Positions 4,422 to 40,352 of a stretch of DNA of 64,000 nucleotides are shown here, in pieces. Made by a program: the position numbers and the translations under genes. The first letter of the stretch is position 1; each line of letters opens with the position of its first letter. The notes beneath the pieces are model-generated. The model was given only the letters and a program-made list of their open reading frames with translations. It searched no databases and had not been told where the DNA came from. The DNA comes from Trogon surrucura (Eukaryota; Chordata; Aves; Trogoniformes; Trogonidae), in NCBI GenBank assembly GCA_020746105.1, contig CM036618.1, forward strand, positions 4,294,501 through 4,358,500, read 5' to 3'.

Positions 4422-6613
4422 CTGCAATGATAAGGATTTAATTCAAAACTGAAAACATCACGCCACTGCCTGAACCAACTCATACATGGAAAGTGTCATG
4501 AAGTTCTGGTTACAGAGTCTCCAAAAGCAAAGACGCAAAGACGGACTATGAGGTTTATCATAGCACCTCTTTAAAAGAGGAGTTTTTGTCCCAGCAGCTT
4601 GGAAAAGAAACAGCGGAAGGAGGGATATCGTAAAGGTGTGAAAAAGATGGATGCAGAATGACCGTGTTTCATTTGCAGCGCAGGAGTAGGTGGCACTGAA
4701 TAGAATTATGAGGGATGAGGTTTTAAAACAAGCAGAAGGAATCCCTCATCTAAGGGGGAAAATTAAACACAAAGATGTCTGAATCTAAACCCCTGAGCTG
4801 CAAATTCGTGAAAGCCAGGAGAACATATAAGTAAGTGTAATTAATAAGTCAGTAGTCCCCCAACAGATGGTCATAAGAAGAGGTATCAAAGAAGGAGGAC
4901 TCTGTGTGCGCCACATTTTAATTTTATTTCCCCAGGCATATGTTCTATTGGAGATAGGGTGGCATTTGGCCAGCTCAGACTGGCAATTCTGTTCCTAGGC
5001 TCCATGGTGATGTTAGTGGAGGAACAGACCAGCCCATATTTGTAGGTGGGAGCAGATGGCTTAGACCATTTGGAGACAATGAGAGTAAGAGTGTGTTCTG
5101 CTGATTTTAGTAATCTCTCCAGACGTTGCCTGCCTGGGCAGGGTTTCCACACATACCTACGCAGCAGGTTTTCTGACGCCGAGAGCAGGTTCCAAACGCG
5201 GCGAATGGTTCTGGGCAGGATTTTGAATGGACGCAATAACCGTGGTATCCAAGACAACGTAAAGTGTCTTTGGGCAAGCTGAGACCTACAGGAAGAATGG
5301 CATTCCCAGCAGTGCTGCAGGATCAGCCCATTTCTCATGGTCTTCCTCCTGCTGAAATGCTACGGACCCCAATTAAGGGTCTGATACAAATACCCCCAAA
5401 GCCCAAGGCAGCTTTTCCAAAAGTTTTGAGAAGCCTCATGGGACCTCACAGGACTCCAGGGAAGGACTTTGTATAACTAGAGAAAAACATAGTTGTTGAT
5501 GGGAAGTTTCTGAACATAACTTGGGCATGCACGTGGTAGCGAGTAGGGAGAGCCCAGCCTGCGGATGCTTCTGGTCATGCAAGGCACAGCACGGTGCTCG
5601 TATGCCCTGAGATGTACCTATAGCTTAAAAAAACAGAGTCAAAAGCCAGAATGTGGCCTGGTTAATAGGCACAAGCAGTTTGTCCAGCTCCTTCCTCCTC
5701 TGACAGCTTTACACCAAGATGGGGAGTTTCATCAAGCATAAAGAAAAGTTTGGCTGAAAACACAATCAGTAAATGAGTCAGTGCAGCAGAAGGACTGAGG
5801 AAGGGGAACCGTCCAGGGAGACCTTCTAGAGGCCTTCCAGTGCCTGAAGGGCCTGCAGGAAAACTGAGAAGGGACTGTGTACAAGGGCATGTAACGACAG
5901 GACAAGGGGCAATGGTTTTAAACTAGAGCGGGGTAGATTTAGATTAGACATCAGGAAGAAGTTCTTCACTATGAGGGTGGTGAAACCCTGGCACAGGTTG
6001 CCCAGAGAGGTGGTGGAGGCTACATCCCAGGAGACATTCAAGGTCAGGCTTGATGGGGCTCTGAGCAACCTGATCTAGTTAAAGATGTCCCTGCTCACTG
6101 TAGGAGGGTTGGACTACATGACTTTGAGAGGTCACTTCCAGCCCAACATATTCTACGATTCTTAAGTAAACTTCACTATTTAAGTTCAACTTAAGTAATA
6201 CAAGGGAACACTTCTGCTGCTCTTCTACCATACACAAAGGAGGAAATTTATGACCCTGGGGTAAGAAGATGCAGATGATTTCTATGGTAACATCTTTCAA
6301 TAGTGCCACAAAGTGGCATAAAGAGACTTCAAAGTGTCATAAGGAGGCAACACCCAGTGGTGGCTTCTGTGGGGAGGTTCTGGTTTGACATCTGGTCACC
6401 ACAGGTTAATTTTTCACTCTTGCTTCCAGACTGAGAAATAGGGAACAGCTCTAATGAAAGGAGATGAAGAGCACAGAGGAGCACATTCTGCACCACCACA
6501 CAAGCTAGTTGTACATCCTACACAGGCAGACCCCAGTGTGTGTCTTGCCCCTTACCTGGAATGACCTGGAGAAGTAAAAGAAGAAGAGCCATGAGGCAGG
6601 AGAAGAGCTTCAT
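4291..6613 (-). CDS. AvBD11: Avian beta-defensin 11, two-domain secreted antimicrobial peptide (3 coding exons)
   Basis: Coding exons on the minus strand are 6556-6613, 5157-5285 and 4291-4421, joining to 318 bases (105 aa plus stop). Residues 1-20 form a leucine-rich signal peptide (starts MKLFSCLMALL). Domain 1 has cysteines at 30, 37, 43, 53, 60 and 61; domain 2 at 71, 78, 85, 93, 100 and 101. All introns have GT-AG ends and splice in phase 1. Motifs such as CLGYHGYC, FAAFGTC and GLCPHRGWRCC match the chicken protein I remember, which has 104 aa. The family is secreted and antimicrobial; AvBD11 is known as vitelline membrane outer layer protein II (VMO-II), made in the oviduct. A TATA box lies 82 bases before the ATG, and tandem poly(A) signals lie 140-150 bases after the stop. 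A CR1 copy sits in the first coding intron. I see no disabling change. Confidence 0.95.
5157..5285 (-). CDS. AvBD11: AvBD11 exon for defensin domain 1
   Basis: The acceptor CTGTAG ends at 5286 and the donor GTATGT starts at 5156. The exon translates to LSLPKDTLRC... and ends ...QKTCCV, with spacing C-x6-C-x5-C-x9-C-x6-CC. The last base joins the next exon to make an Asp codon. Confidence 0.95.
   Translation of the reverse strand, partial: VSACPKTLYVVLDTTVIASIQNPAQNHSPRLEPALGVRKPAA
5816..6163 (+). mobile_element. CR1 LINE 3' portion inside the first coding intron of AvBD11
   Basis: The sequence GACAGGACAAGGGGCAATGG, AGGAAGAAGTTCTTCACTATG, CACAGGTTGCCCAGAGAGG and GGTTGGACTACATGAC is typical. 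It is antisense to AvBD11 and lies between the signal exon and domain-1 exon without touching a splice site. Confidence 0.92.
6556..6613 (-). CDS. AvBD11: AvBD11 signal-peptide exon
   Basis: The 58 coding bases run from the ATG at 6613-6611 to a CCAG|GTAAGG donor at 6556/6555. They encode 19 residues plus the first base of a Gly codon. The 19-codon-plus-1 length is the same as in the other three defensin genes here, which fixes the start codon. Confidence 0.95.
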
Positions 6614-13680: not shown

Positions 13681-15449
13681 GCAAACCGTATTTCTAGAAA
13701 GGATACAAACTGAATTTGCAGCCTGGCCAAGGGATGGAAGGTCCTTGAGCAAAACACATCTCCAGTCTGTCTTTGTGGAGCCCATGAGCTGGTCCATGGC
13801 TCCCTCTTGCGGGGAGATGTGCTGGAGGAGGGAGGGACAGCAAGGCCCTTCTCCTGGGTTGGGTTTGCTCAGAGGCAGAGGTAGTTGCCTGCCTCTTTGC
13901 TCCACCTTCGTCATTAATAATTCACAAAGTAAACAGTTATTCTTTCCTGCTGGAGAGCAGGAATGGGTTAGGGTTTCAGACATGGAATTTTAGGGACTGG
14001 AGTGCGTTCCTCACATTCAGAATAAATGTGTAACTATCAAGTTAACTGACTGAAAAAAATTATATTGCTTGCATGACTTTAAAAACCACTTTGTAATAAC
14101 AATGGGACATCTGCTGCCTAGTGCACACGTAAGCGTGGTCCTTGTAGACACATTCAAGTTTCTAAACCAGCATCTAATCCCAGGAGACCTACCCCTATCG
14201 CTTCATGTCTCTCTAATGTTGCCTCAGAGAGCAGTAACCACACAATGTTAGTTAGTTTATTTTTTTTATAACAAAACTCTTTTTTCAAAAACTTGAAAAT
14301 GCAGGACTTGAGACAATCTCTTGCTGAGACTTCTTTTTTTTCACAAGAGAACATTTCCATGTGGAAATGTGCCCTACCACTAGCCCAGGAGAGCGCGCTG
14401 TGGCTTTCTCGCAATCAACCACCCACAAAGAAAAGTATTATAAAGCTCAGCAGCAGTCTTTCCCTTCAAATCATTGTTGTGTATCTTCTGTATTTATACA
14501 CAGTCCATATGGATGGTGGAAATGGAGCTCATTGCCTGTGCAATGCAAGCAAACTGCCTTAAGCATAGCTAGATGACTATATCCATTGCAGAAAATAAGT
14601 GCATCTATTAAAATTCCAATTATGCCCTTCCTCATTTGGGTGATGTAGTTTTTATTTGCATTTATAAGCCACTTTCTCAGTTTTTGTCCTCATTTATCAA
14701 GGATTTTTCCGAAATGGATCACTCTTAATAACCACAACAAATTTGGCACTGCATCACAAACTTGTGTGCTTGTATTTAATAGTTTCTGGTCTTTAAAAAG
14801 AAAGAAATGTATTAGTAATGATGTCAGAGCTCTAATTCTAGAGTTTTTAATATGAGCTCTGGGGCAAGCAGGAAATGATTTCACAGATGTTAGAATTTGT
14901 GCCATGGGGCTGAAGGTAGGGCAGTGGGGAACAGTGTGGCATGAAATGGAAGTGGGGCAAAACAAAGGTGGGTTGAGCAGAAGAAAACAAACCATGCTTT
15001 GGAAAAGAAAGGGAAGGGGGCAGATGGTGACACAGCCACCCTGCCTCAATCCTGTCCACAGAAGGTCCAGATGAGATGTGACATTCGTGAATGAGGTGCA
15101 ACAAGTGATTTTTAGAAAAATACCTGACTGATTTCTGATAGAAAAATGTCTTATTGCTGGTGGAATATGTGACAGAGATAAGCCAGAGCCAGGGCAAAAC
15201 CCAAGGCTGGTTATCCACCAATTCCAGAAGGACACTGGGGCAGTCTGATCACCTTCACCTCCACCACAGCCAGACTGGAGTCTCTGGATGCTTTGTCCAT
15301 TGCATTGCTGGCCCCACCCCCCTGCCATTTGGTGAACTCACCAGATTTCTGCTACCACCAGCCTGGTACCCAGCATACTTCCTCCAGTGGGATGGGCATG
15401 GAATTGAAGAGGAAGAAGGAAGTTTTGCCTCCTCTCTGACAGCCTTGAC
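13681..15449. other. Unassigned sequence
   Basis: No gene or repeat recognised; the long minus-strand frames at 13387-13983 and 14690-15328 have no domain-like features and run into CR1 or AT-rich DNA. Confidence 0.55.
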
Positions 15450-15775
15450 ATCATAGAATCATGAAATGGTTTGAGTTGGAGGGGACCTTAAAGATCTTCT
15501 AGTCCCAATCCCGCTGCCATGGGCAGGGACACCTCGCACTAGACCAGGTTGCTCAAAGACTCATCCAGCCTGGCCTTAAACACTTCCAGGCATGAGGCAT
15601 TCACAACTTCTCTGGCCAATCTGTTCCAGTGTCTCACCACCCTCACAGTAAAGAACTTGTAATATGTAATCTATATCTACCCTGTCCGAGTTTAAAACCA
15701 TTGGCCCTCGTCCTATCACTACATGCCCGTGTAAAAGGTCCCTCTCCAGCTTTCCTGTGGGCTCTCTTCAGGTAC
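15450..15775 (-). mobile_element. CR1 3' portion
   Basis: The tail TCATAGAATCATGAAATGG, then CCATGGGCAGGGACACCTCG and TCACCACCCTCACAGTAAAGAA mark an antisense CR1, ending near CTCTTCAGGTACTT. Confidence 0.9.
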
Positions 15776-16336
15776 TTGTCCCTGATAACCTTGCATTAAT
15801 GACCTATAGGGAAAAGACTGGGCAGCCAGAACTCGTAGTAGACCTCATCTTCACTGTTGGTGGACCTTGCCTCCACTGTTGGGCTGTTTTGCCTTCCTCA
15901 CAGAAGGTTCAGTTGTCACTCCCAGCCAAAACAGGGCTGTGACTGGAGCAGGACGTTAGGAGTTGTACAGCCCATCTGCTCCTAACACAGGCCACCAGCA
16001 TTTCTGAGTACATACCCAAAGCTCACCTCAGGATGTGAAGCAGGAGGGCTCCTGGTCCCTCCCCTGTGTTTTGCCTCAGGCTCCCACTCTCTCAGCATCC
16101 CTGAGCCTGGCTCCTGTCTGCACAGACCCTGCAGATCACTCCATCCCACCCTGCACGTTCATCCTCCAGCCTGGACTCTTCTCCGAAGCCAGGCTTTGGC
16201 GAGAATCTCCTCAGGTTGTCCCTTCCTTTCTATTGCTAGAGACCTGCTAGGGGGGATCTACACACCCCTAGGGTGGAGAAGACACCCGCAGCACCCAGCC
16301 CAGGGGACAGGCCACCAAAATGCAAGCCTCCACCCT

Positions 16337-16408
16337 GGCCTCGTGGCGCAAGGGCAGCGCATCTGACTCCAGATCAGAAGGTTGTGTGTTCGAATCACAC
16401 CGGGGTCA
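16337..16408 (+). tRNA. tRNA-Trp (CCA), left arm of the inverted repeat
   Basis: The 72-base cloverleaf starts GGCCTCG and pairs with CGGGGTC at the 3' end. The D arm is GCGC/GCGC. The anticodon CCA at 16369-16371 sits in loop CTCCAGA, and the T arm contains GTTCGAATC. It is identical to the copy at 23376-23447. The 3' flank has only a TTT run, a weak Pol III terminator. Confidence 0.9.
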
Positions 16409-17370
16409 GCCTTTCACCACCACTCCTCACCCTCTCCTTTTCTCCACACATCCTTCCCACCACAGGCAGGGCTCTTCAAGCAAAGCATTGGCTACCTCAG
16501 CTTATAGAGAGGCACCTCCACAACCACCTGTGTGGCAACTGTGGTGCCAAGAGCTTTCCTTTCAGCCAGGCAGCAGGGACCCACCTGACAGGTTATGGTT
16601 CATGACCAGAGGGGCTGCAAGTACAGGGAGGTCTTGTGATGGGGGTCTCCCACACTTTGCCTCCTCAAGAAGCTGAAGGAAGGGGAAGTCCTGTCTTCTT
16701 CAGGAAAGTGCAAGAAGCTTTAAAACTGCCTGCTCTGCCCTGGGGGACCTGGATTACCCACTGCAGCACTTGCCTGGGAGGGTAACATGGACTGGTACAG
16801 GCAGTACGGAGGATTTATGGAGAGCTTCAAGGACAATTATCACTCTAGGATTATGGAAAGAGAGGCAGGTTTCTGAGGAACAACAGAAGACCTTTTTTTC
16901 AGGAAGGGTAAGAAGGAGGATCTGGGGAGATCTGGTCTGCTCATCTTCACCTCAGGGACCTCACGAAGACTATGGAAAACCACGCCCAAATGAAGGAAGG
17001 ATCTGAAAATAACGTGGAAATAACCAGAAACAGGGACCATGGATTTATCAAGAGCAGGTGACATTTGGCCAGCAAGACAGATTTCTCTGGTCATCAAAAG
17101 GAGACCAGGGAACATCCTGATGGTGGGGTCTCCCAGATGTGCCACTCTAGCAGGACACAGAGTGTCTAAGCTCAGTCACAAAGTAGAGCAAAGTGACTCA
17201 ACCAGGGGGCTCAGGACATTGAGGTCAGCAGTTGGCAGGCCAGCTGACATTCTGCACTGCTCCATACCTCATTGGATGTTGTCTGGTGTCTTTGCGATGG
17301 GCTCAGAGGATGTTCTACACAACCAAGGGCATGGGCAGCCCTCCAGGGCCATGGGGCTGCTCAGGGTCCA

Positions 17371-17443
17371 GGGCCAGTGGCGCAATGGACAACGCGCCTG
17401 ACTACGGATCAGGAGATTGCAGGTTCGACTCCTGCCTGGCTCG
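17371..17443 (+). tRNA. tRNA-Arg (ACG), left arm of the inverted repeat
   Basis: The 73-base cloverleaf starts GGGCCAG and ends CTGGCTC plus G. The anticodon ACG is at 17404-17406 and the T loop is GGTTCGACTCC. A TTTT terminator follows at 17448-17451. The A and B boxes are intact, so it is probably functional. It decodes CGN arginine codons. Confidence 0.95.
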
Positions 17444-17898
17444 ACTCTTTTAGCCTGGACACAGACCTTCCTCCTGCTCCCTCCCCAAGGACCATCCTTC
17501 TCCTCCTGCCCCTCATTTCTCCTCCTAGGCTTTCTGCAGGCCAAAAGTGCTGGATTGTCCTCCTGCCTTTCAGGAAGGAAGGTGTTCCTCCAGACCTTGT
17601 AGTGGAACTGGGCACTCTGTCTCATCTTTCTACTGACATCCCTCTAGTTCCTCTGCTTACTTATGTTCCACACTGGGAATAATTCTTACAGCTTTGGTGT
17701 CCGTATTATAAGGACTTTTATTAACTGTTACAAGGCTAGTACAGGACCATCAAAATAACATGATGTTGGAACACAAGCCATGAGAACTGTTGTTTTTTGG
17801 CCTGGGCAAGAGGGGGTTTTAGTAAGGACGTAATAGCAACCTTCCAGTACATATGATGAGGTCATCAAAGCAAGCACTTCCTGAAGCATTTCATGAAG

Positions 17899-18860
17899 AG
17901 AATCATAGAACCACAGAATTATAGAACCATAGAACCGTAGAATCCTAGAATCATAGAATGAGTTGGGTTGGAAAGGACTTTTCAAGGTCATCTTGTCCAA
18001 CGTCCCTGCCTTGCGCAGGGATATGTCCAACTAGACCATGTTGCTCAAAGTCCTGACCAACCTGACCTTGAATGATTCCAGGGATGGGGCTTCTACCACC
18101 TCTCCAGGCAACCTGTGCCAGTGATTCACCATCCACATTGTAAAATATTTCTTCCTTACATCTAGTTCAGTTTTCCTCTCTTTTACTTTAAACCTATTAA
18201 CCCTTGTCCTATCACAACAGGCCCTGATAAAAAGATTTTCCTCACCTTTCTTATCAGCCCTCTTCAAATACTGGCAGGCTGCTATAAGGTCTCTGAAAGC
18301 CTTCTCCTCTCCAGGCTGAACAACCCTAACTCTCTCAGCCTGTCCTCATAGAGGAGGTGCTCCAACCTCCTGATCATTTTCCTGGCCTCCTCCAGACTTA
18401 CTCCAACAGACCTATGTCCTTCTTTCGTGTGGGTCGCAGAGGTGGACACAGAACTGCAGGTCGGGTCTCACCAGAGCAGAGCAGAGCAGAGCGGAGCAGA
18501 GCAGAGGGGGCAGAATCACCGCTCTCTATCTACTGGCCAAGCTGCTTTTGATGCAGTCCAGGATAAAATTGGGCTTCTGGGCTGTGAGCACACATTGAAA
18601 GCTCATGTCCCAGTTTTCATTCACTAAGTCCCCCAAGTCCTTCCCTTCAGGGTTCTTCTCAATCCTTTAATCTTCCAACCCGTACTGATACTGGGGATTG
18701 TCCCAACTCAGGTGCAGGACTTTGCATAAAGTTCAAGAGCTTTCTGTCAGCTCACAACTCCTGCCTCACTAAGCTTCTCTGAAGGAAAATCCTTCCCTCC
18801 AGCTCATCAGCCTCTGCTCCCGATTTGGTATTATCCAGAAACCTGCAGAGTGTGTACGTG
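17899..18860 (-). mobile_element. CR1 LINE, long diverged copy
   Basis: The plus-strand text begins with repeated AATCATAGAA tail units, then TTGGGTTGGAAAGGAC, and runs through the CR1 3' UTR and C-terminal coding region (CTCTCTCAGCCTGTCCTCATAG, GGGCTTCTGGGCTGTGAGC). A GAGCA tandem run at 18475-18505 interrupts it. It may continue to about 19020. It lies in the spacer between the tRNA arms. Confidence 0.88.
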
Positions 18861-19084
18861 TTGTTAATGAAGACAGCTAACCGTGACAGCTAACACCTCC
18901 ATTATTAGTAGGTTCCATTATTAACAAGGCACCATTATTAACAAGACACTTGTTACATTTCTAACTGGTCATCCCAGCACTTTGGTTCTGGTGGTCCAGC
19001 CAAGTTTCCACCCACTTTCATAGCCTCTCCTACGGTTCATATATGTGGATTCCCTACATTTTACAGTTAGTTGTGCCAGCAACA

Positions 19085-19495
19085 CTGTGTTGCAGAATTA
19101 AGACTTTTGTCCTTGAGCTCTTTTCTAAACAAGTACATAACTCTCGCTTGCTAATAATGAAAAGAGAACCTGACCAGCCAAGTACAGCTCATGTTGGGAT
19201 TTTGTCCATGAGAATGAATAGATAAGATGCTTCTTGCACACAAGATGTGCATGGGAGTGAACGGGAGAGTATGATCAAAACAGACCTGGGAAAGTCTGTT
19301 CTCCCTGTGTGATAAGAGAGTGACTGAAGGAGTACACGAGCTAATAACAGGCCTGGCTGCATAGTCTGGTCTCCTGTTTGTAACCCACAAATAGTGCTTC
19401 TTGCTAATAAGTATAAATATGTGTGCCTGCTTGCAATAAAGTGAATTCCATTTTCCACCCTCTCAGAGTTTCTGCGTGCTTCTCCACATGTATAC
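19085..19495 (+). mobile_element. Possible solo LTR of an endogenous retrovirus (fossil)
   Basis: A promoter-like GTATAAATATG (about 19411) is followed within 30 bases by GCAATAAAG and a T-rich stretch, the order of the U3-R-U5 parts of an LTR. No viral coding sequence adjoins it. The ends are guesses. It lies between two CR1 copies in the tRNA spacer. It could also be unrelated AT-rich DNA. Confidence 0.3.
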
Positions 19496-19522
19496 TTGTA
19501 ATCTGCTTACAAGACTGCCCAG

Positions 19523-19677
19523 GGAGGTTGTGGAGTCTCCTTCTCTGGAGATATTCAAAACCCGCCTGGACACGTTCCTATGTAGCATTATCTAGGTGTT
19601 CCTGCTCTGGCAGGGGGATTGGACTTGATGATCTTTCGAGGTCCCTTCCAATCCCTAACATTCTGGGATTCTGTGAA
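19523..19677 (+). mobile_element. CR1 3' end fragment
   Basis: CTGCCCAGGGAGGTTGTGG, CCTGCTCTGGCAGGGGGATTGG and a CATTCTGGGATTCTGTGA tail. Confidence 0.88.
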
Positions 19678-20660
19678 GAAGACTCTGGAAGACACTATTT
19701 GAAACTTCAATTAAGTCAAGATAAACAAATGTTTCTTTCCCAGGTGTCAACAGAGCAGATGGTTGGGTAGGTGAAGTAGGACCTTAATAAATCTATGCTG
19801 ACAGTTTGCAACTGGTCTTGTGTCATTTACGTGTCCCTTTTGTTCAAGTGATTCTTGGCTTGATCATCCTCTGCCGTGAGTAACCCACTGCCATAGGCTC
19901 TGCCAGAAAGTGAAGAGACATGAAGCTGAGGGCAGATCTCATCAATAAAGACAGAGACAGGGAAGCCTTGGAGTACCTCAGCCTGCTCCATGTCCATTTC
20001 CCTCCTTCACTCAGAAGTGGTCCCACACTTTGTTTTTCTTTTGCTGCCAGTGTGATTCTAAAAACCATTTAGTTGACCTTTCACATCTTTACCAACCTTA
20101 ACTCCAGCTGAGCTTCGGTTTTCCCATGTCAGCAGGGAATTTTAATCAAATAATTATTATCACCCTATTTGACACTTGTGGAACCATACCTGGAGTCTGT
20201 GTCCTGTTTTAGGGTCTCTGAGACAAGAAAGATATTTACAGACTGCATTTAGTCATCCAGATTAGGAGGTGGTGGATGAGGAGTGGACTAGAGAGCTAGG
20301 TTTCTATAATACGGAAAAGGTCAATGAAGGATTAAAATCTTGTTTTGTGCTATGTGTGCCTACAAAGTGGAGCCAGGGTTTTCTTGTGGAGCATGGAGTA
20401 TGGAGCTTGACAAAACAGATTACATCAAGAAGAAAATCTGTCAGATGATAGGAAAAAAAATAATTTGTCAGAAGTCACACATTAGAACAGCATCCCAGAG
20501 ATTCTTTCGTGCTCTGAGCAGGGAATTAGATCACCTGTCTCCCAGGAATCTCATTATATCTGTTTTTTCCTATACCTAACTAAATCCTCTTGTGCCCTCC
20601 CCTGCTCCCCTCACAGAGCACATCCAGAGCTGGGAAGCCCCCAGACCTCCAGCAGGGTCA

Positions 20661-20733
20661 GGGCCAGTGGCGCAATGGACAACGCGCCTGACTACGGATC
20701 AGGAGATTGCAGGTTCGACTCCTGCCTGGCTCG
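20661..20733 (+). tRNA. tRNA-Arg (ACG) in the spacer of the inverted repeat
   Basis: All 73 bases are identical to the copies at 17371 and 22345, but the flanks differ apart from a short AGGGTC-like stretch upstream. A TTTTT run lies about 45 bases downstream. Identity inside the gene with unrelated flanks points to selection or gene conversion. Confidence 0.94.
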
Positions 20734-21299
20734 CCCTGAAACTCCCCGGCTGTCATGGATGTGACAGCAAACAGCATGTTTTTCTGTGGTACCTCCCCTT
20801 CCCGGCTTTTTGTCCGTCTCTCTGACATCCGCATCACAGGAACATCATCTTGTGAAACATTTCATCAAAGCTGCAGAAATGCTGCTTACTTGAAGAGCCA
20901 TCACTCCTCAAGTTCTTTTCAGCCTGGGCTACTGACCTCCTAGACTGTTGAGCAGGGTTGCTTCTGATGTCTCTGAACGTGTGTTTTCATCATAAGCCCT
21001 GTGCAGATCTCCCTTCTGTCTTCCTGAACACCACTGAGTGAGAGCTACCTGAAGTCGCTCTAGGAACTGTGAGTAAGGGGTGAGTGGAAAATGCTCCAAG
21101 ACATTGGGCTTGAAAAGTTGTGGTCAATGACTGGAAGTGCAAATTGCTCCCAGTGCTCCTCAGGAGTCAATGTTACTGCTGATACTACTGAACATCTTCA
21201 CTGTCGTACTCGGTAGTGGGATAGGATGAAGCCTATATGAGGTCACGGATGACGTCAGTGGGGGAGGAAACAGCTGACACTTGTAGGGACAACTGTCAC

Positions 21300-21580
21300 T
21301 CGGAGTGACCCGCACAGGATGAAGAAAGTTCGGCAAAGGCAAACACAACATCGTGCATCTGGGCTGGGATAACCCCATGCAGCATGACAGACTAGGGGTG
21401 ACTGCCAAGAAAACAGCTGTGCAGAAAAGGGGATAGAGGGTCCTGGAGAAGAGCGACTTGAACAAGAGTAGGCAGCGTGCCCTTGCACCCGTGAAGGCAT
21501 GCTGAGATATCCCAGGTAAGGATACAGCCGCTGGGTCAAGAGGAAGGTTGCTTGCCCAGCATCCAGCACTTCTGAGAACA
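21300..21580 (+). mobile_element. Probable old CR1 coding-region fragment
   Basis: CATCGTGCATCTGGGCTGGGATAACCCCATGCAGCA corresponds to the CR1 segment downstream of the RT core, but the 3' end is absent and the rest is diverged. It lies in the tRNA spacer. Confidence 0.45.
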
Positions 21581-22344
21581 CCATTGGGGCACTGTGTCCA
21601 AGACTGAGCTTCTCAGTACAGACAATACACTAATAACATGCAGCAAATCTAGTTTGTCCTTCATACTTTTCCATACCTCTATGAACTTTTTCCCTAGTTA
21701 GTGTTTTTTTAAACTCTACTAGCAGACAAACATTTGCCTCTTCCTGTCTCACACATCATGTTTTCTCCTGAGCTATCCTAATTTCTAAAAAGAAGGCTGC
21801 AAAGTGATAGAAGTGAGGGGTCTGAGATGCCCAGGTGCTGTATCCCTCTTCTCTGTCCTTGTCTGCACCTGGATCATGAGGCTGGGTGTCTGAATCACAC
21901 TGAGGCCAGGCTTGGGACGGTCCTGCAGGTGGGTGGCCTGTCTGTGATTTCCATGGGTGCTCACCAATGGTGCAAAAGAATATTGCGAGGCTCTGACAAG
22001 CAGCAGCAAGACCAACATGAGCCTCACAAGTGGTTGAGGACCAGAGCACATGACCTGCCAGAACAGCCTGACACTGCTGCGTCTGCTCAGCCCACAGAGT
22101 TGAGGAGGCATCTTCATCCTGCTGTGGGATTTACTGACGTGCCCCTGGCTGAGGTGTGGCACCAAGCTCTGCCTCTTTTGGAGTGCCTATGGGTCTCGAA
22201 GAACATCTTCCTTCCTGAAAGGCAAGAGGACAACACATCACTTTTGGCCTTCAGAAAGCCTGGGAGGAGAGATGAGGGGCAGGAGGAGAAGGATGGTCCT
22301 TGGGGAGGGAGCAGGAGGAAGGTCTGTGTCCAGGCTAAAAGAGT

Positions 22345-22417
22345 CGAGCCAGGCAGGAGTCGAACCTGCAATCTCCTGATCCGTAGTCAGGCGCGTTGTC
22401 CATTGCGCCACTGGCCC
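22345..22417 (-). tRNA. tRNA-Arg (ACG), right arm of the inverted repeat
   Basis: The minus-strand sequence is base-for-base the same as the tRNA-Arg at 17371-17443, including the CTTTTAG terminator context just downstream. Anticodon ACG. Confidence 0.95.
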
Positions 22418-23375
22418 TGGACCCTGAGCAGCCCCACGGCCCTGGAGGGCTGCCCATGCCCTTGGTTGTGTAGAACATCCTCTGAGCCCATCGCAAAGAC
22501 ACCAGACAACATCCAATGAGGTATGGAGCAGTGCAGAACGTTAGCTGGCCTGTCAACTGCTGACCTCAATGTCCTGAGTCCCTTGGTTGAGTCACTTTGC
22601 TCTACGTTGTAACTGAGCTTAGACACTCTGTGTCCTGCTAGAGTGACACATCTGGGAGACCCCACCATCAGGATGTTCCCTGGTCTCCTTTTGATGACCA
22701 GAGAAATCTGTCTTGTTGGCCAAGTATCGTCTGCCCTTGATAAATCCATGGTCTCTGTTTCTGGTTATTTCCACGTTATTTTCAGATCCTTCCTTCATTT
22801 GGGCGTGGCTTTCCATAGTCTTCATGAGGTCCCTGAGGTGAAGATGAACAGACTAGATCTCCCCAGATCCTCCTTCTTATCCTTCTTGAAAAAAGGTCTT
22901 CTGTTGTTCCTCAGAAACCTGCCTCTCTTTCCATAATCCTAGAGTGATAATTGTCCTTGAAGCTCTCCATAAATCCTCCGGACTGCCTGTACCAGTCTAT
23001 GTTACCCTCCCAGGCAAGTGCTGCAGTGGGTAATCCAGGTCCCCCAGGGCTGAGCAGGTGGTTTTAAAGCTTCTTGCACTTTCCTGAAGAAGACAGGACT
23101 TCCCCTTCCTTCAGCTTCTTGAGGAGGCAAAGTGTGGGAGACCCCCACCACAAGACGTCCCTGCAGTTTCAGCCCCTCAGGTCATGAGCCATAACCTGTC
23201 AAGTGGATCTCTGCTGCCTGGTTGAAAGGAAAGCTCTTGGCACCACAGTTGCCACACAGGTGGTTGTGGAGGCGCCCCCCCTATAAGCTGAGCTTTCAGA
23301 GCTCTGCCCATGGTGGGGAGGATGTGTGGAGAAAAGCAGGGGCAATAGAGAGGGTGAGGAGTGGTGGTGAAAGGC

Positions 23376-23447
23376 TGACCCCGGTGTGATTCGAACACAC
23401 AACCTTCTGATCTGGAGTCAGATGCGCTGCCCTTGCGCCACGAGGCC
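23376..23447 (-). tRNA. tRNA-Trp (CCA), right arm of the inverted repeat
   Basis: The minus-strand sequence is identical to the tRNA-Trp at 16337-16408, with the same flanks (CACCCTGGCC upstream, GCCTTTCACC downstream). The anticodon loop is CTCCAGA. Confidence 0.9.
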
Positions 23448-24125
23448 AGGGTGGAGGCTTGCATTTTGGTGGCCTGTCCCCTGGGCTGGGTGCTGTGGGT
23501 GTCCTCTCCATGAGGACCACCCCAGGGCTGTGTTGGGCCAAGCCCAGAGACGGGCTACAGAAGGTAGAGGAGACAGGACCACCCCTTTAGGAACTGCTGA
23601 GTGAGTCATGCTCAGAGCTTTGGTGACCCATCTGAAGGATGTAAGCCCAGGGAGATAGGGCAGAGGTGCAGAAGGAACAGCATAGGTCCAGGATATGCAG
23701 GGGCAGCTGAGGAATAAGTACATTCCATCCTCCTGTTGGGGTGAAGGTGGCTCCACCCAGGCCATGCAAAAGGCTTGAAGGTCCCTCCTTCTGCCACGGG
23801 GCTTGAGGTCAGTGCTGTGCATCTGCCAGGTGAATGGGCCTTCTCTCCCCAGGGAGATGGTGGGACACCACCCCTCCTCCCCCTCTGGAGACAGCACACA
23901 CAGGAGTCTATTTCTCCTGGGAAAGGCCCTGCAGGACCACTCTGGGCAACGCTCACGTTTTAACCTTCCCCCTCTGCCGCACTTCATTTAGAGCCCTCTT
24001 TGCAAGGCAGCTGGCAGAGATATCTCCATTCCTCTGTCAGGTAAATTGAAAGTCCCCTTCCCTCAAAGTAAAGTGCATGGTCATGAAATCTGCGATCACA
24101 TTTGTGCAAATTTTGTTCCAGCCCT

Positions 24126-24197
24126 GACCCTGTGGTGCAATGGTAGCACGTCTGACTCCAGATCAGAAGGCTGTGTGTTCAAATCACACCGGGGTCA
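24126..24197 (+). tRNA. tRNA-Trp (CCA), diverged copy outside the inverted repeat
   Basis: The 72-base cloverleaf is GACCCTG...CGGGGTC with D arm GTGC/GCAC, anticodon CCA and T loop GTTCAAATC. It differs from the arm copies mainly in the acceptor and D arm, yet substitutions keep pairing, which argues for function. No T run follows closely. Confidence 0.85.
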
Positions 24198-24477
24198 GGA
24201 TGTCCCACCCTCCTCCATGGGGTAGCACTCTGAGATGGGCGTCCCACAGGCAATTGCTTTTGCCCTCCCACTCTGTACCCCCCAGCCCTGCTGAAGGGTA
24301 GTAAACGAATGATAGCAGAGTGATCTTTCCTTGCTGGGACAGTGTTGCAAACTGTCTGGATAGTTGCAGCCTACTTTCATCCTGTGTCTACAAAGGACAC
24401 TGGGTTAGTGGGCATCCCAGCTGTGGCTCCACATCTGGGTACTGCGTCTCTTGGTCCCAATTGCTCTCCAGATGGTC

Positions 24478-24574
24478 AAAGGCATCTGACTCCAGATGTG
24501 GACTTTTACAAAAAAACCCAGCCTGAGGTCTCCTGATCCATAACAGGGCACATTATCCATTGCAGCTCTGGCCC
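24478..24574. pseudogene. Decayed tRNA remnants (Trp-like plus, Arg-like minus)
   Basis: 24478-24501 on the plus strand holds GCATCTGACTCCAGATGTG, a tRNA-Trp anticodon-arm piece. 24525-24574 on the minus strand reads GGGCCAGAGCTGCAATGGAT and onward to GGATCAGGAGA, the 5' two thirds of tRNA-Arg with several mismatches in the D and anticodon arms and no T arm. Both look like dead copies of the local tRNAs in opposite orientation. Confidence 0.7.
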
Positions 24575-26174
24575 TTGTGAGCCTGGCACCCCGTAGCAAC
24601 ATGTCATTTTGTTCATATTTGTGGTTTTTATCTCCCATCTTATCACTGTGCTCTCTGATAAAAGTCTAGGTCCATCTACTCTCTGCCTTGCAGTTAGATG
24701 GTTAAAGCTTGAGATCAGATCCCTCAGGTTCTCCTTCAGATTCTCCCTCAGGTTGAATGAACCCAACTCTTTCCACCTCTCCTCACACCTCAAGTACCCA
24801 AATCCCCCACCACCTTGGTGGTTGCCTCTGGATGTGCTTCACTATGTCAATATCTTTTGATTCTGTTGGAAATCAAAATCAATCTGTCAGGTCTAGTCAT
24901 CAGGATCTTCAACTCTCTAGTTATGAAAGAGCAAGTTCCCCATGCATTTCTTGGTGAGATGGACAGAGGGGATGAAGGGCTGGAAGAAAAGGAGACTTGA
25001 AGCTATGTGAATGACCTGACACGAGTTCATTAAAATAGTTAAACTCTTTAAAGTTGAATTTTAAAAAATATAAACAGAAGGCATAATGAAAAGACACAGT
25101 GAAGTGAAGAGAAAGGCAAGAAAAAAATAGGGAGAGAAACGTAATTTCTCCATCTTTACCCACATCAGGTCCAGGCTGCTATTCCTATGCCAGGATCAGG
25201 CATTTAACAGGAAGAAATGTCCCACAATTCTGCATCCTGCACACAGGGGAGGACATTGAGCCAAAAGTTCATGAGAACAAGTGTGGGACTCGCCTAACAA
25301 GGCAGACTTGAACTCACACCTCTAAGGAACTCAGGCAAGTTCCTGATGTTTGGACAACAGCTGAATGATGATATCTGAACATAGTACTGGACTAACACCT
25401 TAAGAAGCTCGTGTAGCTCTGTAGTCAGTGAGGAAGATCAACTAAGCATATCTGGTAGTGTCTCAAAAAGGTCATTTCCATGGATTCATGGAAGGTGGGT
25501 TTTCATGTGGCAATGCTGCTGGCCTGAAAGTGCAAGGAACTTAGTCTACCTGGACACAGGCTGTCTTGTCTAATCACTCAGCCCCGGTAGATCCACCATA
25601 CAGTTTACCTGGCACCGTTCACAAATGTCTTGAGGGATGGAGGCAGAGGGGAAAACAGACCACCTCTGGGCTCAAACCATCCCACAGCAGGGCATCACAG
25701 CTCTAGAGAGCCTTGGGGATGACATTGGCCTGGGAACTGCAGCCAGGGAACTGCAGACAGAGAATTTGACGAACTAAGGAGGGCAAGGTCCTTCAGTGTG
25801 CTTCCACAGTTCCTAATCCTATACCAAAAACCCCTAAGTGTAGGTCCTTGCTTGACTCCCATTCTCACTTACGTGATGAATGTAAACCTACAGGCTCCTA
25901 TCCTGTGTCCCTAAACTCCTGATGTGTCACCAGTGGGTTAAGTGAGCAGAGGATCTGCCCTCCAGATGTCGCCACCTCACCGTCCTTTTATGTCCTCGGT
26001 CTTTCCAAAACCAAATAAGCAAGGGGAGCACCCAAAGGCAGGGGGAGATGTCTCTTGACAAAATGCACGTGGATGTGACATGGGGAAAACGTTGCAGCTG
26101 GAACCTGTACATTCCAAATCCTGCACCTGCTGAGTGAGATCACTCAGCTGCGATTGCTGTTGAGCCAGGAGCGT
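24575..26174. other. Unassigned sequence
   Basis: Nothing firm. 24640-24800 has faint CR1-like wording (CTCCTTCAG, CCTCAGGTT) too weak to call. Confidence 0.55.
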
Positions 26175-26237
26175 GGATTCTATGATGCTGTGGTTCTATG
26201 ATTCTGTGTTTCTATGTTTCTATGATTCTATGATTAT
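26175..26237 (+). repeat. ATTCTATG octamer run, probable CR1 tail relic
   Basis: Seven imperfect TTCTATGA/TTCTGTGT units occur without an adjoining CR1 body. Confidence 0.65.
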
Positions 26238-27868
26238 ACCATCACTCTGTCTCTGTAATGTGATTTTATGTCCCTTTAACTTCTCTGAAGGGAAAGAAAC
26301 TCGGGTATTTCCTTTTTCAGATGAAAAAAACTTCACCAATAATATAGTACAGGTTGTTAGATGCTTTTCCTGGGAGTGCTATCACGCTCCTGAAAGAATG
26401 GTATCTGGTAGGAAATATTATTCTGGTATATTTCTGGTTAGAAGTATTATCTTCACTGCAGCCAATGAGAGCAGTTTTAATATTCCATAAAAAATGCTGA
26501 CATTTACAATTATTCTCACACTTCAGTGGCCTGAACTTTTAAGACTTTTTTAAAGTTTTATTTTGTTGGTTTTTATGGGGTTTTTTTTTAGAGCAGCAGT
26601 GATTTGTGTCACAACATAGGAAAGAGATGGCAAGTGATGAGGTTTAGTCAAAGGGACGATTTACCAGGCAGTGGAACTTGATTTCTCCCATGCAAGGAAG
26701 GTCGTCAAAAATTACTTAATAACCAAATTATTAAATAACCTTCAGGATCTTTGAATTTTACTAGTTTAAACCCTCTACCCTGCATAAACAAGAAAGTCTT
26801 TGAGGCCATATCAGATAGGAAAGTGTGGGGGAGAACGTCTTAAAAATATTCCTTAAAATTGTAAACCTTGGTAATAAATGCTGTTTCAGATATAACTTTA
26901 TTTTCCAGTGAAAATCCAGTTCTCAGAAAATTGTATTAGTCCTCTTGGGATCCATTATACTATTTCACTCTAAGTATTGACATACAGTGAGCTTGAGCAG
27001 AGGAGGACACGAAGCCTGGGAGCACAAGCCCAGCTTTCCTGAGTTGGGACCCCTGCTTACAGGAACTAGATTGAGTCCAGCACTGGATTTTGTGTGGCTG
27101 GTGAAAATAATTAAATAGTCAGGCAGTAAGAATTTTTCCTGGCTCTATGAACCTCTGTGCCACTCCTGTGTCACCAAGCTCTGCTCACTTCTAGCATGAT
27201 CCCATGACTGCTCTGGAAGCTGAAATCTCAGTTTCATGTCTCTCCATCCTGTTGACTCCAGGCTTAACTTCTAAGTTGGAGACAAGGTCACATCTCCCTC
27301 TTAGTGACCAAAACAAGGTGATTTTTGTTCTGCTGTCCTTTCTATGAGGAGGTCAAGATTACCCCAGCAGAGAGTTGTTAGGGATTATTTCTTTCCCAGT
27401 ATATATTTTGGAGACAGCATGTGGCTGATATCAGGAGGCAGAAGGACTTTCAGATAGTACACTAATACCTTTAAAATCAGATCATAAAACAGATGGTAGG
27501 AGATGGATTAGCAGCCAAGACATCCACAAGAAATACTTACTTGAAATTATTTCAGGGAAAAAAAAAACCAAGAAAAAGAACTCAGAGCAATTTCTTTACC
27601 TCTGTTGCAATCTGCAAACCTCAAAGCACACACACACACACTCATAGTTGCACCTTTCTCTCAGATGTTTTTTTTTGAGTCAAAACTGTCTAACTTTTTT
27701 ATTCCACCATTTCATCCAAATTTTAACCCTCTTTGTGATGTCAGGTTCAAGACTCGCATTCATAATGCTTTTTTTAGTCTTTCTTTGCTATTTTTTGCTT
27801 GTTTTTCCAGATACAGACCCAGGATATACTCCTGAATGTATATTAGGTTGTCTCCTTAGGAACTGGAT
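26238..27868. other. Unassigned AT-rich sequence
   Basis: Only a short CA repeat (27628-27642) was recognised. Confidence 0.55.
27628..27642 (+). repeat. Short CA microsatellite
   Basis: About seven CA units. Confidence 0.8.
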
Positions 27869-28054
27869 GAATCATAGAATCGTAGAATGGCCCAGGCTGG
27901 AAGGGACCTCAGAGATCATCTAATCCAACCTCCCTGTCACGGGCAGGGACGCCTCTCAACTAGATCAGGCAACACATGGGGACCCAACGGGGATCGAACC
28001 CGCGACCTTGGCGTTATCAGCACTACACTCTAACCGAGTGAGCTAACAAAGTCC
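27869..28054 (-). mobile_element. tRNA-Ile/CR1 composite SINE (TguSINE1-like), near full length
   Basis: Read on the minus strand it starts with a tRNA-Ile-like head (TTAGCTCACTCGGTTAGAG, GATAACGCCAAGGTCGCGGG, GTTCGATCCCCG) and passes through CCCATGTGTTGCCTGATC. It ends as a CR1 3' tail (GGTTGGATTAGATGATC...ATTCTATGATTC). The acceptor stem no longer pairs well, so the tRNA part is not a functional gene. Passerine birds are known to carry SINEs of exactly this build, mobilised by CR1. Confidence 0.75.
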
Positions 28055-29399
28055 AAGAAGATTTAGACAAAGCACAAGGACCACTCTTGTGAGCAGACAC
28101 TCATGCTGATAGTGAAATGCAATCAAGACTAAATTTTTTAAATGGAAAAATGTTTAAATGAGAGGTACACAAGTCAGAGCTCATCAGTTCTCAAATAACT
28201 CTTCTTCTAATACTATGCCCTGCTCTGTCACAGTTCATCCAGTTTTCAAAGCCCCAGAAGTGTTCTAGACACTTCTTATGCCTTATGTTTACAGTGAGGA
28301 AGTCATGATGTGGATTTCTCCTGAGAAAGGAAGTGGCAAGATGGAGCTGGAGCACAGGGCACTGCTCAGTACTTTAATTCCCCTTCTACCAAGGCTGATA
28401 GAGGTATAACATCAAAGATTTCTTGTCCTTGAAGCATCTCAGATGTATTGTCATCCCCTGGGAGAACAGAGTGTTGTCACCATTCGTACATTAATTCTTA
28501 AAACACTCGTGGGAAGGAGGGGAAAGAAAACCTCCTGGCTCTACCAACATGAGGATGCAAAGACCTTACAGGTCCTACCTAAAGAGCAGTGATGCCAGTG
28601 AAGAGGTGACACATTTTTGAATTGATAAGGAGTTAAGCTTTTTGCTATATTCTTCTAATTCCTTACCAAGACCAAACCTTTACGTATGATCTTTGTACCA
28701 ACAGCCATAAACACAGTGTCCCTCTGAAGGGCTGGAGAAGAGGGTGAAGGGTGGGCAAAACTATATTTTACACCCCCGCAAAGACGTGGGTGTGAAAGCT
28801 GAACAGGGGACTCTTGAGAAACACAGCCCATAATGCTGCTGGCAAGTCTTGGTCTTTCCAAAGGTCATTTGCCTGGCAGTATCTGGCTCATTACCCTGGA
28901 GGAATCCCACCCTAGAAAGGCGGTGGGGTGGAGGTGCTGCCGTTAAAGGCATAATTTCCCAGCAAAGTCATGCACAGAGGAGCAGGAACTATTAGCCGTG
29001 GGTGGCTCCGTGGTGACCTTTATGCAAAAACGACTCTCTTAGCTGATGTGGGTTGGATACTTGCAAATGGCCTTGAGCATTTTGTCAACTTCAGCAGATG
29101 AAAATCAGATTGGCTTATGCCATGTTAGTGTGTCTGTGAACAAGAGGGTTCAAAAATTAACACCTCAGTGACTTCCCTTTCCATTTGAGGGATTCTTCCA
29201 GGCTGGCCTCTGTAGTATCAGTCTTGCTCCCAAGTAAGACTGGACCAAGTCTCATCCCTCAGCATGGGGACCAGAGTTGTGAGGAAACGCCATCCATGGG
29301 ATAATGAAATAAGGAGAGGCAGAGAACAGATTTGTGTGGTGCTGTCAGAAACTCTCCTGATAGACACTTATCTCAGAGAGATATCACAAACATAGGCTG
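28055..29399. other. Unassigned sequence
   Basis: No recognisable gene or repeat. Confidence 0.55.
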
Positions 29400-30018
29400 G
29401 GGATGAGTGGACTGTAAACAGCCCTGCAGAGAAGGACTTGAGGTGCTGGTGGGTGAAAAACTGGACATGACCCAGCGATGTGCACTCGCAGCCCAGAAAG
29501 CCAATCGCATCCTGGGCTGCATCCAAAGCAGCGTGGCCAGTAGGTCAAACAAAGAGATTCTGCCCCTCTGTTCTGCTCTGGTGAGACTCCCATCTGCAGT
29601 TCTGTGTCCAGCTCTTGGGCCCTCAGTACAAGAAGGACATGCACCTGTTGGAGCAGGTGTGGAGGAGACCATGAAGATGATCAGAGGGTTGGAGCACCTC
29701 CCCTATGAGGACAGGCTGAGAGAGTTGGGGTTGTTCATCATGGAGAAGGCTCTGAGGACAGTTTACTGCAGCCCCCCAGTACTTGAAGGGGGCTACAGGA
29801 AAGAAGGGGAGGAACTCTTGATCAGGGAGTGTTGTGATAAGACAAGGGGTGATGGTTTCAGGCTGAAAGAGAGTAGATTTAGACTAGATATTAGCAAGAA
29901 ATACTTTTCTATGAAGGTGGTGAGACACCTACACAGTTGCCCGGAGAAGCTGGGGTGTTGGAACAAGATGATTTTAAAGTTCCCTTCCAACCCAAACTGT
30001 TCTATGATTCTATGATTT
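29400..30018 (+). mobile_element. CR1 LINE 3' portion
   Basis: The translation contains [30 protein letters not shown] and RLDISKKYFSMKVV, all CR1 C-terminal motifs. It ends CCCTTCCAACCCAAACTGTTCTATGATTC. Confidence 0.92.
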
Positions 30019-36278: not shown

Positions 36279-36336
36279 ATGAAATTCCTCTACCTGCTCT
36301 TCGCTTTGGTCTTCCTCCTCTTCCAGGCTGCTCCAG
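36279..36336 (+). CDS. AvBD10: AvBD10 signal-peptide exon
   Basis: ATG to CCAG|GTGAGA is 58 coding bases, phase 1. It encodes a Lys followed by a hydrophobic Leu/Phe core and ends at AAPG. Confidence 0.95.
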
Positions 36337-38798
36337 GTGAGAGGCAAAATCGCTTCTATCAAGAATGAAAGGGCTCCTAAGCAAAAGTCTGTGTGTAGGA
36401 TTGAAAAACAATTATCGACAGACAGGAAAAATTTGATTCTGTCAGGATGGTGCTATGCAGAGGATGGGACCGAGACGGTCTGTGCTGATGATGACAGTCT
36501 TCCTAAAAGAGCAACGCAGTTTATTGCATATTTATCCTTAGGTTTAGACTGAAAAATAAGGTTTTAATGCCTTCCCCTTTCCCACAGGTTCTGCTGATCC
36601 TCTTCATCCTGACACCGCAGCGTGCAAGAGCGTAGGAAATTTCTGCCGCCTTGGGGCATGCCCACCCACCTTCAGTGCCTCAGGGACATGCCACTCAGGG
36701 ATGATGAATTGCTGTTCAAAGTAAGTGCCTTCGGACCGAAGGGCGTCAGAGGGCGTTTTGATTCTGCAATTTTTGTCAATTGTGTATTTGAGTAACGTGC
36801 ACAGTTCCATGAGGCTCGAAGGGCAGTCATTTGTGAGGAAGTCCGGGTGGAGGATGAACACTTATACAGCATAGAAGTGTGTTTAAGGAGATAATTCATT
36901 CTGGTGGAAGTCATGTATGAGATAAAAAGTTCAGGAGGGTCACAGTTTCCCAGAAATCAGTATTTTCCCCTTTGTTTTGAATTTTGGTGAGAAAAAAAAA
37001 GAATTTTTGTCTAAGAAATTATGAGGAAAGTATCTCACGGTATTTTCACTCATCGAGGGAAACAATGTTGCCTCCCTTCCTCTTCTCATTTCCAAAATGA
37101 CCTAGAAAATTCAATTTTCAAGGGGGAAACATGGTCACAGAACCCTGCTTCTCACTTCTTTCCCATCTTTTCTATGTTCCACCACTGTGCAGCTCTTAGA
37201 AAGGTGAAGAAGAGTGACTTTGATAGTGATGGAAACAACGGGGTGTTCGTTTCACTTTTAATTTTGGAAACCCTTTGTAATATGTCTCATAGCAAGTTTT
37301 TCTCATTCCTTAAAGTTTCTAACATGCTTTGGGGGAATGTACTTTAGCTTATGACAAAACGTATTCCTGAGGCATTAAATTATTATAATATTTCTATTCC
37401 ACTGATGGCCACGTGAAGATCATTGTTAGCTGCAGTGAGGATGACATACACTGAATTCAGCGGCAAATTAGGAGAAATTCTTGTATCTTTTGACCAAAAA
37501 AGACAAGTGTAATGACATAACTCGTCCCAACAGATGTTCAGAGAGATCTTGAGTCATTGATGCAACCAGACAGAGCCTGGTTCAAAACAAAGCAAGAGCT
37601 CAGATCCATATTTTCTGAAATTTCCAGAACTCCTTATTCTGTTACTTATGGACTTGCCAGGGTTTAAAAGTTCCCAGAAGCTGAAGAAAGGGGGATGAAA
37701 TGGCTCTGCTCTAGGGAAGAGATTTCACAGCATTTGATCAGTGCATGGGGATCCTCAGTCACAGTGGTTTCAGGAAACACAAATCATTATTAGGACATGT
37801 CGAGATTAAGATGCTAAAGAAGCATCCTCTTAGGAACCCAGCAAAGTAAATGGCACAGAGGCAACCTGATATTAGATGATTTTATAAAGGGGTGGCTCTA
37901 TCCTTCAGTCTCTGTGAACAACCATTTTCTTTAGGAGGTAATTTCTACCAATAGTGAACAGACTGGTAGGAGCAGATGGCAAATCACCATCAGACTTCTG
38001 CAGGAACATCTGCTGGACCTGATCTGAGGAAAATTGGGATGAGGGCAGGAACAAAACCTCCTGAGTTTGCTTCCAGGTGTAATTTTTCTACAGTTATTCT
38101 ATTTCTTGGAAGAACGTACCCGTATGTGATATTGAGGGATGTTAATGTACAGGATTAAAACTCTTCCTATTGGGCTGTTAGATTTTCAGATGGGTTAAAC
38201 CAATTAAGCAGTAGAAGTTGAAAACAACAAGGTATTCTGAGATACAAAACAATTTTTTCTCTACCTCAGGATTTAACTTACTGAGTTTCTTGAGAAGAAA
38301 TCTTTCGAATTGGACAAAAAGAGTTTGATTCAGTAAACTAGATTGAGTTGTTTAATGGCATTTGAGATGCCTCGGAGTATTTGAACTGCAATATGCAGAT
38401 CTGGATGAGATAACTCATGACCTATGGGAGAAAATCTGCTTGGAGGCCAAGCAGATATCTCAGAGCTCTTCAAATGGGTTGTCTGATTCAGTAACTAAGT
38501 CAAATCCCAAATTTGTGTTTTGCGGTGTGCTGAATCAAAATTTTATTACTTCTGGTAATAACTAGCTTGCCAGTGACCCTAGTTCATGTGGACTGCATGT
38601 CTGCAGACCTAGATACCCAGCACGCATGGGGACCCTTACTTGGAGGCATCTAAATGTAGGTTTTTTTAACCTGCAGGCTGAACCCACCCTGTACATTTAT
38701 TCTGAAAGGTAGTTAGCAGGTGTTGAGGCTTTTAGAGCTTGAGTTTAGCAGCAAATTAACAAGATCCTTTGTATCCTCACAGGATTACGGCAAAGTAA
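36279..38798 (+). CDS. AvBD10: Avian beta-defensin 10, secreted antimicrobial peptide (3 coding exons)
   Basis: Coding exons 36279-36336, 36588-36720 and 38783-38798 join to 207 bases (68 aa plus stop), the same length I recall for chicken AvBD10. Residues 1-20 are the signal peptide (starts MKFLYLLFALVF, ends FQAAPG). The mature domain has cysteines at 32, 39, 44, 54, 61 and 62, the canonical C-x6-C-x4-C-x9-C-x6-CC. Motifs VGNFCRLGACPPTF and GTCHSGMMNCC are close to chicken. The last exon is 16 bases and supplies K-I-T-A-K-stop through a split Lys codon. All donors are GT and acceptors AG. The peptide is expected to be secreted and to permeabilise microbes. A TATA box and an AATAAA frame the gene, with no visible defect. 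It lies divergent from AvBD11 across 29 kb. Confidence 0.96.
36588..36720 (+). CDS. AvBD10: AvBD10 mature-peptide exon
   Basis: The acceptor CCCACAG ends at 36587 and the donor GTAAGT begins at 36721. It encodes SADPLHPDTAAC through NCCS and carries all six cysteines. It leaves a 2-base AA remnant that needs a G from the next exon. Confidence 0.95.
38783..38798 (+). CDS. AvBD10: AvBD10 16-base terminal coding exon
   Basis: The acceptor CCTCACAG ends at 38782. The sequence GATTACGGCAAAGTAA completes the split Lys codon and adds I-T-A-K-stop. The chicken protein ends in KIPAQ, so the length and frame fit. Confidence 0.85.
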
Positions 38799-39263: not shown

Positions 39264-40352
39264 ACAGAATCACAGAATGTCAGAGGTTGGAAGAGACCTC
39301 AAAGATCATCTGGTCCAACCCCCCTGCCAGACCAGGATCACCTATAGCAGAGCACACAGGAACGCGTCCAGGTGGGTTTTGAATGTCTCCAAAGAAGGAG
39401 ACTCCACAACATCCCTGGGCAGCCTGGGCCAGGGCTCTGTCACCCTCACAGGGAAAAAGTTTTTTCTCATATTTTTATGGAACCTCCTATGTTCCAGCTT
39501 CCACCCATTGCCCCTTGTCCTGTCAATGGACATCACTGAGAAGAGCCTGGCTCCATCCTCCTGACACTCCCCCTTGACATATTTATAAACATGAATGAAG
39601 TCACCCTTCAGCCTCCTCTTCTCCAGGCTAAAGAGACCCAGCTCCTTCAGCCTTTCCTCATCAGGGAGATGTTCCACTCCCTTCATCATCTCTGTGGCTC
39701 TGCGCTGGACTCTCTCCAGCAGTTCCCTGTCCCTCTGGAACTGAGGGGCCCAGAACTGGACACAATATTCCAGATGTGGCCTCACCAGGGCAGAGCAGAG
39801 GGGCAGGAGGACGTCTCTGACCTACTTGCTCCTCCCCTTCTAACACACCCCAGGATGCCATTGGCCTTCTTGCCCACGAGGGCACACTGCTGGCTCATGA
39901 CCATCCTGCTGCCCAGCAGAACCCCCAGCTCCCTTTCCCCTGCGCTGCTCTCCAGCAGGTCAGACCCCAGCCTGTGCTGGCACATGGGGTTGTTCTTTCC
40001 CTGGTGCAAAACTCTACACTTGCCCTTGTTGAACTTCATAAAATTACTCCCCTCCAGCCTGTCCAGGTCTCTCTGAATGGCAGCACAGCCTGATGGTGTG
40101 TCAACCACTCCTCCCAATTTTGTATCATCAGCAAACTTGCTGACAACATTCTCTAATCCCTCATCCAGATCATTGATAAATATATTAAACAGCACCAGCC
40201 CCAGCACTGACCCCTGAGGGACCCCACTAGACACAGGCATCCAGCCAGACTCTGCCCCATTGACCACAACTCTCTGGCTTCTTCCCTTCAACCAGTTCTC
40301 GACCCACCTCACTACTTGGTCATCCAGACCACACTTCCTCAGCCTATTTGTA
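39264..40352 (-). mobile_element. CR1 LINE, 5'-truncated, with readable reverse transcriptase and 3' UTR
   Basis: On the minus strand 39782-40312 translates to the CR1 RT core: [21 protein letters not shown] and the catalytic box [11 protein letters not shown] second frame (39342-39785) continues [35 protein letters not shown] and ends at the usual CR1 stop. One frame change near 39785 separates the two. The 3' end is CAACCTCTGACATTCTGTGATTCTG. Few disruptions over 1 kb suggest a fairly recent insertion. Confidence 0.93.

Follow-up and report, generated by a model that had tools for sequence, protein, structure and literature searches.

Why should two identical pairs of transfer RNA (tRNA) genes lie in opposite orientation within a cluster of avian beta-defensin (AvBD) genes? 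The question is raised by a stretch of 64,000 nucleotides from Trogon surrucura (contig CM036618.1, positions 4,294,501 to 4,358,500 of the forward strand), which is referred to here as the window. A first-pass annotation placed at 16266-23525 a large inverted duplication that carries paired tRNA-Trp and tRNA-Arg genes, with arms of 1.33 kb and a spacer of 4.6 kb. This description was borne out by complementary sequence blocks, blastn, ARAGORN, and the Rfam tRNA family RF00005. The block is an inverted duplication of a tRNA pair. Events of this sort are ordinary, and the tRNA-Trp copies that are fused to CR1 retroposons are a minor addition to it. In all likelihood, the duplication left tRNA genes that look functional and are kept by selection, and the defensin setting is incidental.

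Arm A (16274..17596, +) and arm B (22192..23510, -) are separated by a spacer of 4,595 bp (17597..22191). By eye, some homology extends to outer limits at ~16258/23525 and stops at inner limits near 17597/22191. The arms share blocks of 703, 388, 172, and 56 nt that are 82-97% complementary, and blastn aligned them at 93.5% over 1,335 columns, gaps included. Of the 1,307 ungapped columns, 59 carry a substitution, with transitions (46) outnumbering transversions (13), and the slightly wider stretch 16258-17602 has six gaps that range in size from 1 to 15 bp. The two arms are thus homologous and lie in opposite orientation, with non-homologous flanks, as in an inverted segmental duplication. In the 1.17-Gb assembly of this bird, only these two full-length arms were found (12 of 12 candidates scored). 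The other 10 candidates are pieces of 54-107 bp, and the duplication is therefore local and not a dispersed repeat. Repeat counts from this search are lower bounds. An assembly artefact, allowed for from the start and taking the form of a fold-back join or a duplicated contig, can hardly be the explanation, since 59 substitutions and several indels distinguish the arms, no third copy was found, and both arms and the spacer lie inside one 127-Mb contig.

The Trp-Arg order is the same in both arms according to ARAGORN and Rfam. Arm A contains tRNA-Trp(CCA) (16337..16408, +) and tRNA-Arg(ACG) (17371..17443, +), with the ~960 bases that had been reported between them (16409-17370). Arm B contains tRNA-Arg(ACG) (22345..22417, -) and tRNA-Trp(CCA) (23376..23447, -). 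The limits given by ARAGORN are 16336-16411 (+) and 23373-23448 (-) for Trp, and 17371-17443 (+) and 22345-22417 (-) for Arg. Overlooked in the first reading was the wider setting of the arms, a cluster of six tRNA genes and at least one relic. A third tRNA-Arg(ACG) is found in the spacer (20661..20733, +), and a third tRNA-Trp(CCA) is found beyond the arms (24126..24197, +). The relic is the decayed 5' part of a tRNA-Arg (24522..24574, -; E 0.002), and its score of 50 compares with maxima of 30, 28, and 38 from three shuffled windows. A cloverleaf and anticodon were identified at the curated threshold of RF00005 for all six genes, with 60.9 bits for each Arg, 63.5 bits for each arm Trp, and 71 bits for the third Trp against a threshold of 29. 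These genes appear to be functional. No further tRNA was found in the 10 kb adjoining each end of the window, and at a loose Rfam threshold only the tRNA family reached its gathering score in 14000-30000.

The first-pass annotation also stated that the tRNAs are identical between the arms while the rest has drifted. Alignment of the arms confirmed this, as there are 0 differences in 145 tRNA positions and 59 in the remaining 1,162 (Fisher P = 0.0012). The third Arg gene is informative here. It is identical over all 73 bases to the Arg genes of the arms, and its flanks are unrelated, since the alignment has 82 columns and continues for only ~8 bp upstream of the gene. Because the spacer gene is identical without a shared arm, the identity of the Arg genes neither needs nor proves arm-to-arm conversion. 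The third Trp matches the arm Trp at 84% over 101 columns. Contig C6 has two tRNA-Arg genes 3.6 kb apart that are identical over 73 bases. Their alignment extends over 84 columns at 97.6%, and no other collinear match is present in the compared 3-kb loci. This pair, lacking extended collinear flanks, is likewise a case of identity without long paired arms.

The Arg genes of the window differ from those of C6 at 4 of 73 positions, and the cloverleaf is kept. Two of the changed positions form the pair 27-43 (U-A to C-G), one changes the pair 50-64 (U.G to C-G), and one is in the D loop; this numbering is our own reading of the alignment. Across the whole assembly, the exact anticodon-arm pattern of tRNA-Arg(ACG) has five matches, three of them inside the window. 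The corresponding pattern of tRNA-Trp(CCA) has seven matches, again with three inside the window, and of the four outside it, two are called as tRNA by ARAGORN and two are not. Exact patterns miss copies with a mismatch, and the search with the arm sequence gave one more Trp-like place (L004).

The favoured history can be described as follows. The interval between AvBD11 and AvBD10 would already have held a tRNA cluster, inside which a local inverted segmental duplication copied a 1.33-kb unit with one tRNA-Trp and one tRNA-Arg. The tRNA genes would then be kept identical mainly through selection on the tRNA, to which arm-to-arm conversion may contribute, while the remainder of the unit drifts. 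The role of the block would be the making of tRNA-Trp and tRNA-Arg(ACG), and its genes are presumably transcribed at present. With the tRNAs left out, the K80 distance between the arms is 0.053. Avian substitution rates are 1.9 to 3.3e-9 per site per year. At such rates, the duplication would be ~8-14 million years old if no conversion had occurred.

A different history is that of an older inverted repeat that was homogenised by gene conversion between the arms, in which case the present 5% would be a balance and not an age. This is possible, if rather doubtful. Gene conversion had been proposed in the first-pass annotation, and that part of the proposal fits the clustering of the arm differences (sum-of-squares, P = 1e-4 for the whole arm and 0.014 for the inter-tRNA part alone); it is not needed for the Arg genes, as seen above. 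Stretches without any difference, 165 and 148 bp long, also extend well beyond the tRNAs. However, the longest-run test gave P values of only 0.017 for the whole arm and 0.20 for the inter-tRNA part, and constraint on the tRNAs and their flanks would give a similar pattern. With two copies, the pattern seen could equally reflect selection or uneven mutation. Long inverted repeats were also thought to form cruciforms or to invert the spacer, and the 1.3-kb arms do lie in opposite orientation. Efficient ectopic recombination in vertebrates usually needs more identity than a run of 165 bp at ~5% divergence. Such a recombinogenic element is improbable, as the arms are 4.6 kb apart, diverged by ~5%, and share no identical run longer than 165 bp.

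It was further suggested that the block insulates AvBD11 from AvBD10. tRNA genes can work as insulators in yeast and mammals, and the block does sit between two divergently oriented defensin genes. The defensin setting and its two flanking genes were correctly recognised in the first reading. An AvBD11 exon (5161-5256, -) matches Gallinacin-11 of PDB with 72.3 bits, and AvBD10 exons are read at 36279-36336 and 36623-36715 (+). The Pfam family Defensin_beta was tested for four of the four defensin exons, and the names AvBD8, AvBD9, and AvBD10 are presumed for those of the window. In chicken, however, Gal 8-13 are described as one tissue class that includes both Gal10 and Gal11 (PMC515299, from the portion available), and the insulator is likewise improbable. 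The orientation of AvBD genes is described as conserved across birds, with exceptions in some passerine AvBD1 and AvBD3 duplicates; most assemblies behind that comparison are of draft quality (PMC4571063, from the portion available). In the literature searched for tRNA genes together with bird defensins, inverted repeats, or inverted duplication, no title or opening of an abstract described the block.

The fused copies can indicate where transcripts of such genes ended. Three loci outside the window contain copies that resemble a tRNA-Trp precursor and have CR1-family sequence directly 3'. The survey of fusions covered tRNA-Trp only, and a preference for Trp over other tRNAs cannot be read from it. 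For the third Trp gene, the predicted primary transcript of RNA polymerase III (Pol III) is 24120..24261 (+), with a short leader, the gene, and a trailer to the T-run at 24258-24261. The copy at C1:13.97 Mb (L014 and L024) is a match of 141 bp at 97.9% to the third Trp. It starts 6 bp upstream of the gene and ends in the downstream T-run. A tRNA-like head, called tRNA-Ser(TGA) by ARAGORN, starts ~2 bp past the Trp part, and it is followed by what was read by eye as a CR1-like tail with a terminal ATTCTATG repeat. This element may be a TguSINE1-like short interspersed element (SINE), although the reading by eye may be wrong. The Trp part is only ~2% diverged and apparently young, whereas an early extinction of TguSINE1, in the oscine ancestor, has been put forward by its authors as a hypothesis (PMC5729268, from the portion available). 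A host from another passerine lineage could reconcile the two.

The copy on C9 (L020 and L025) is 5'-truncated and matches at 93% over 117 bp with the same T-run end. A dispersed repeat adjoins it at once. When this stretch was compared with the genome and 40 of 950 candidates were scored, 35 of the 40 other matches start at query positions 116-121 and none start earlier; position 117 is the first base past the Trp part. At ~1.3 kb further on, a reverse-transcriptase domain (PF00078, E 3.3e-26) is encoded by an open frame, and for this reason the repeat is taken to be a long CR1. The copy on C2 at 10.0 Mb (L004 and L023) contains an arm-type Trp at 83%, a trailer to TTTT, and then directly a CR1-like 3' part. 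A genome search for more copies of the trailer gave none (7 of 7 candidates scored), and its two trailer matches stop within the T-run that follows the third Trp, at 24260 and 24259. The fused copies look like reverse-transcribed primary transcripts. They suggest past Pol III transcription of such tRNA-Trp genes in an ancestral germline, and they serve as sequence evidence of where those transcripts ended. The fusions are consistent with a template switch of the CR1 enzyme, a mechanism that has been proposed for PittSINE (PMC5729268, from the portion available).

Some observations weigh against the duplication with selection-kept genes that is favoured here. The clustered differences leave room for gene conversion, as does the identity that extends past the genes, by 48 bp on the upstream side of Trp and by 73 bp on the downstream side of Arg. 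A T-run after both Trp and Arg in the arms speaks for functional genes. Terminator distances, taken by eye to the first run of four T, are uneven. In the arms they are 4 bp for Arg (TTTT) and, for Trp, 29 bp (16438-16441, arm A) and 40 bp (arm B). The third copies have theirs at 45 bp (Arg) and 60 bp (Trp), and the distance of the third Arg counts against the favoured reading. In addition, the donors of the fused copies are deduced from sequence, and the C2 copy is only 83% identical to the arm type.

The sequence between the tRNAs can also be connected to dispersed elements. The stretch 16896..17059 (+), which has its arm B counterpart at ~22730-22893, contains short matches to dispersed places at C2:45.97 Mb, at C1:22.25 Mb, and in the repeat on C9 that codes for reverse transcriptase. 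These matches are 77-87% over 35-70 bp, with 16896-16967 matching L021 and L022 and 17025-17059 matching L025 within its reverse-transcriptase frame. The stretch probably derives from the reverse-transcriptase region of a CR1, and this decayed piece would have been copied along with the unit. Part of the spacer (17939-18424) aligns with a CR1-like sequence of dispersed type, at 69% over 490 columns. None of five open reading frames from the arm sequence gave a Pfam match above the family cut-off, with one match below it at E 0.097, and no protein homologs of one arm frame were found at E 0.001 among 11 candidates. Public contigs of viruses and prokaryotes had 0 copies of one 24-base probe, as is expected for bird DNA.

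Taken jointly, the block could possibly be the main genomic store of tRNA-Trp and of a tRNA-Arg(ACG) variant present only in the window, kept uniform by conversion between the inverted arms, with Trp precursors as a recurrent 5' partner of CR1. This reading is unlikely. If it were true, tRNA-Trp/CR1 fusions could seed a new SINE family. Identical tRNAs in diverging arms, with an identical third gene outside them as a control, represent a natural experiment, and one or two related genomes could separate selection from gene conversion at the block.

Two other features of the window were noted. A putative TguSINE1-like SINE is located at ~27870-28053 (-), with a tRNA-Ile head and a CR1-derived tail that ends in an 8-bp repeat. 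It was identified from an ARAGORN tRNA-Ile call, a repeat match of the tail, reading by eye, and the structure given in the available portion of PMC5729268; here and on C1, the label rests on structure and not on comparison with a consensus. The element would suggest a passerine as host. The tRNA-Ile call (27977-28053) was rejected as a gene, since this weak call is taken as the head of the SINE. A second long inverted repeat (39320-40236 / 55812-56737) has blocks of 119-380 nt at 87-95%, with 15.6-16.7 kb between the blocks. It encloses AvBD9 and AvBD8 exons and is probably CR1-like at least in part.

In vertebrates, multicopy nuclear tRNA clusters show local duplication, identical genes whose flanks have diverged, and relics next to intact genes. 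The block resembles them in all of these respects. It differs in its unit, a Trp and an Arg gene repeated in inverted orientation on arms of 1.3 kb, and in its position within an immune gene cluster. The avian beta-defensin cluster, from CTSB to TRAM2, likewise has AvBD11 and AvBD10 on either side of the block's position in its published order (PMC4571063 and PMC515299, from the portions available). The published accounts are unlike the present one in that the word 'trna' occurs 0 times in the available portions of PMC3161384, PMC515299, and PMC4571063. The fused copies are like TguSINE1 and PittSINE in that a tRNA part is joined to a CR1-derived tail (PMC5729268, from the portion available). 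Unlike those families, they are single as far as the genome searches show, and each has a tRNA-Trp precursor with its trailer placed before a SINE or CR1.

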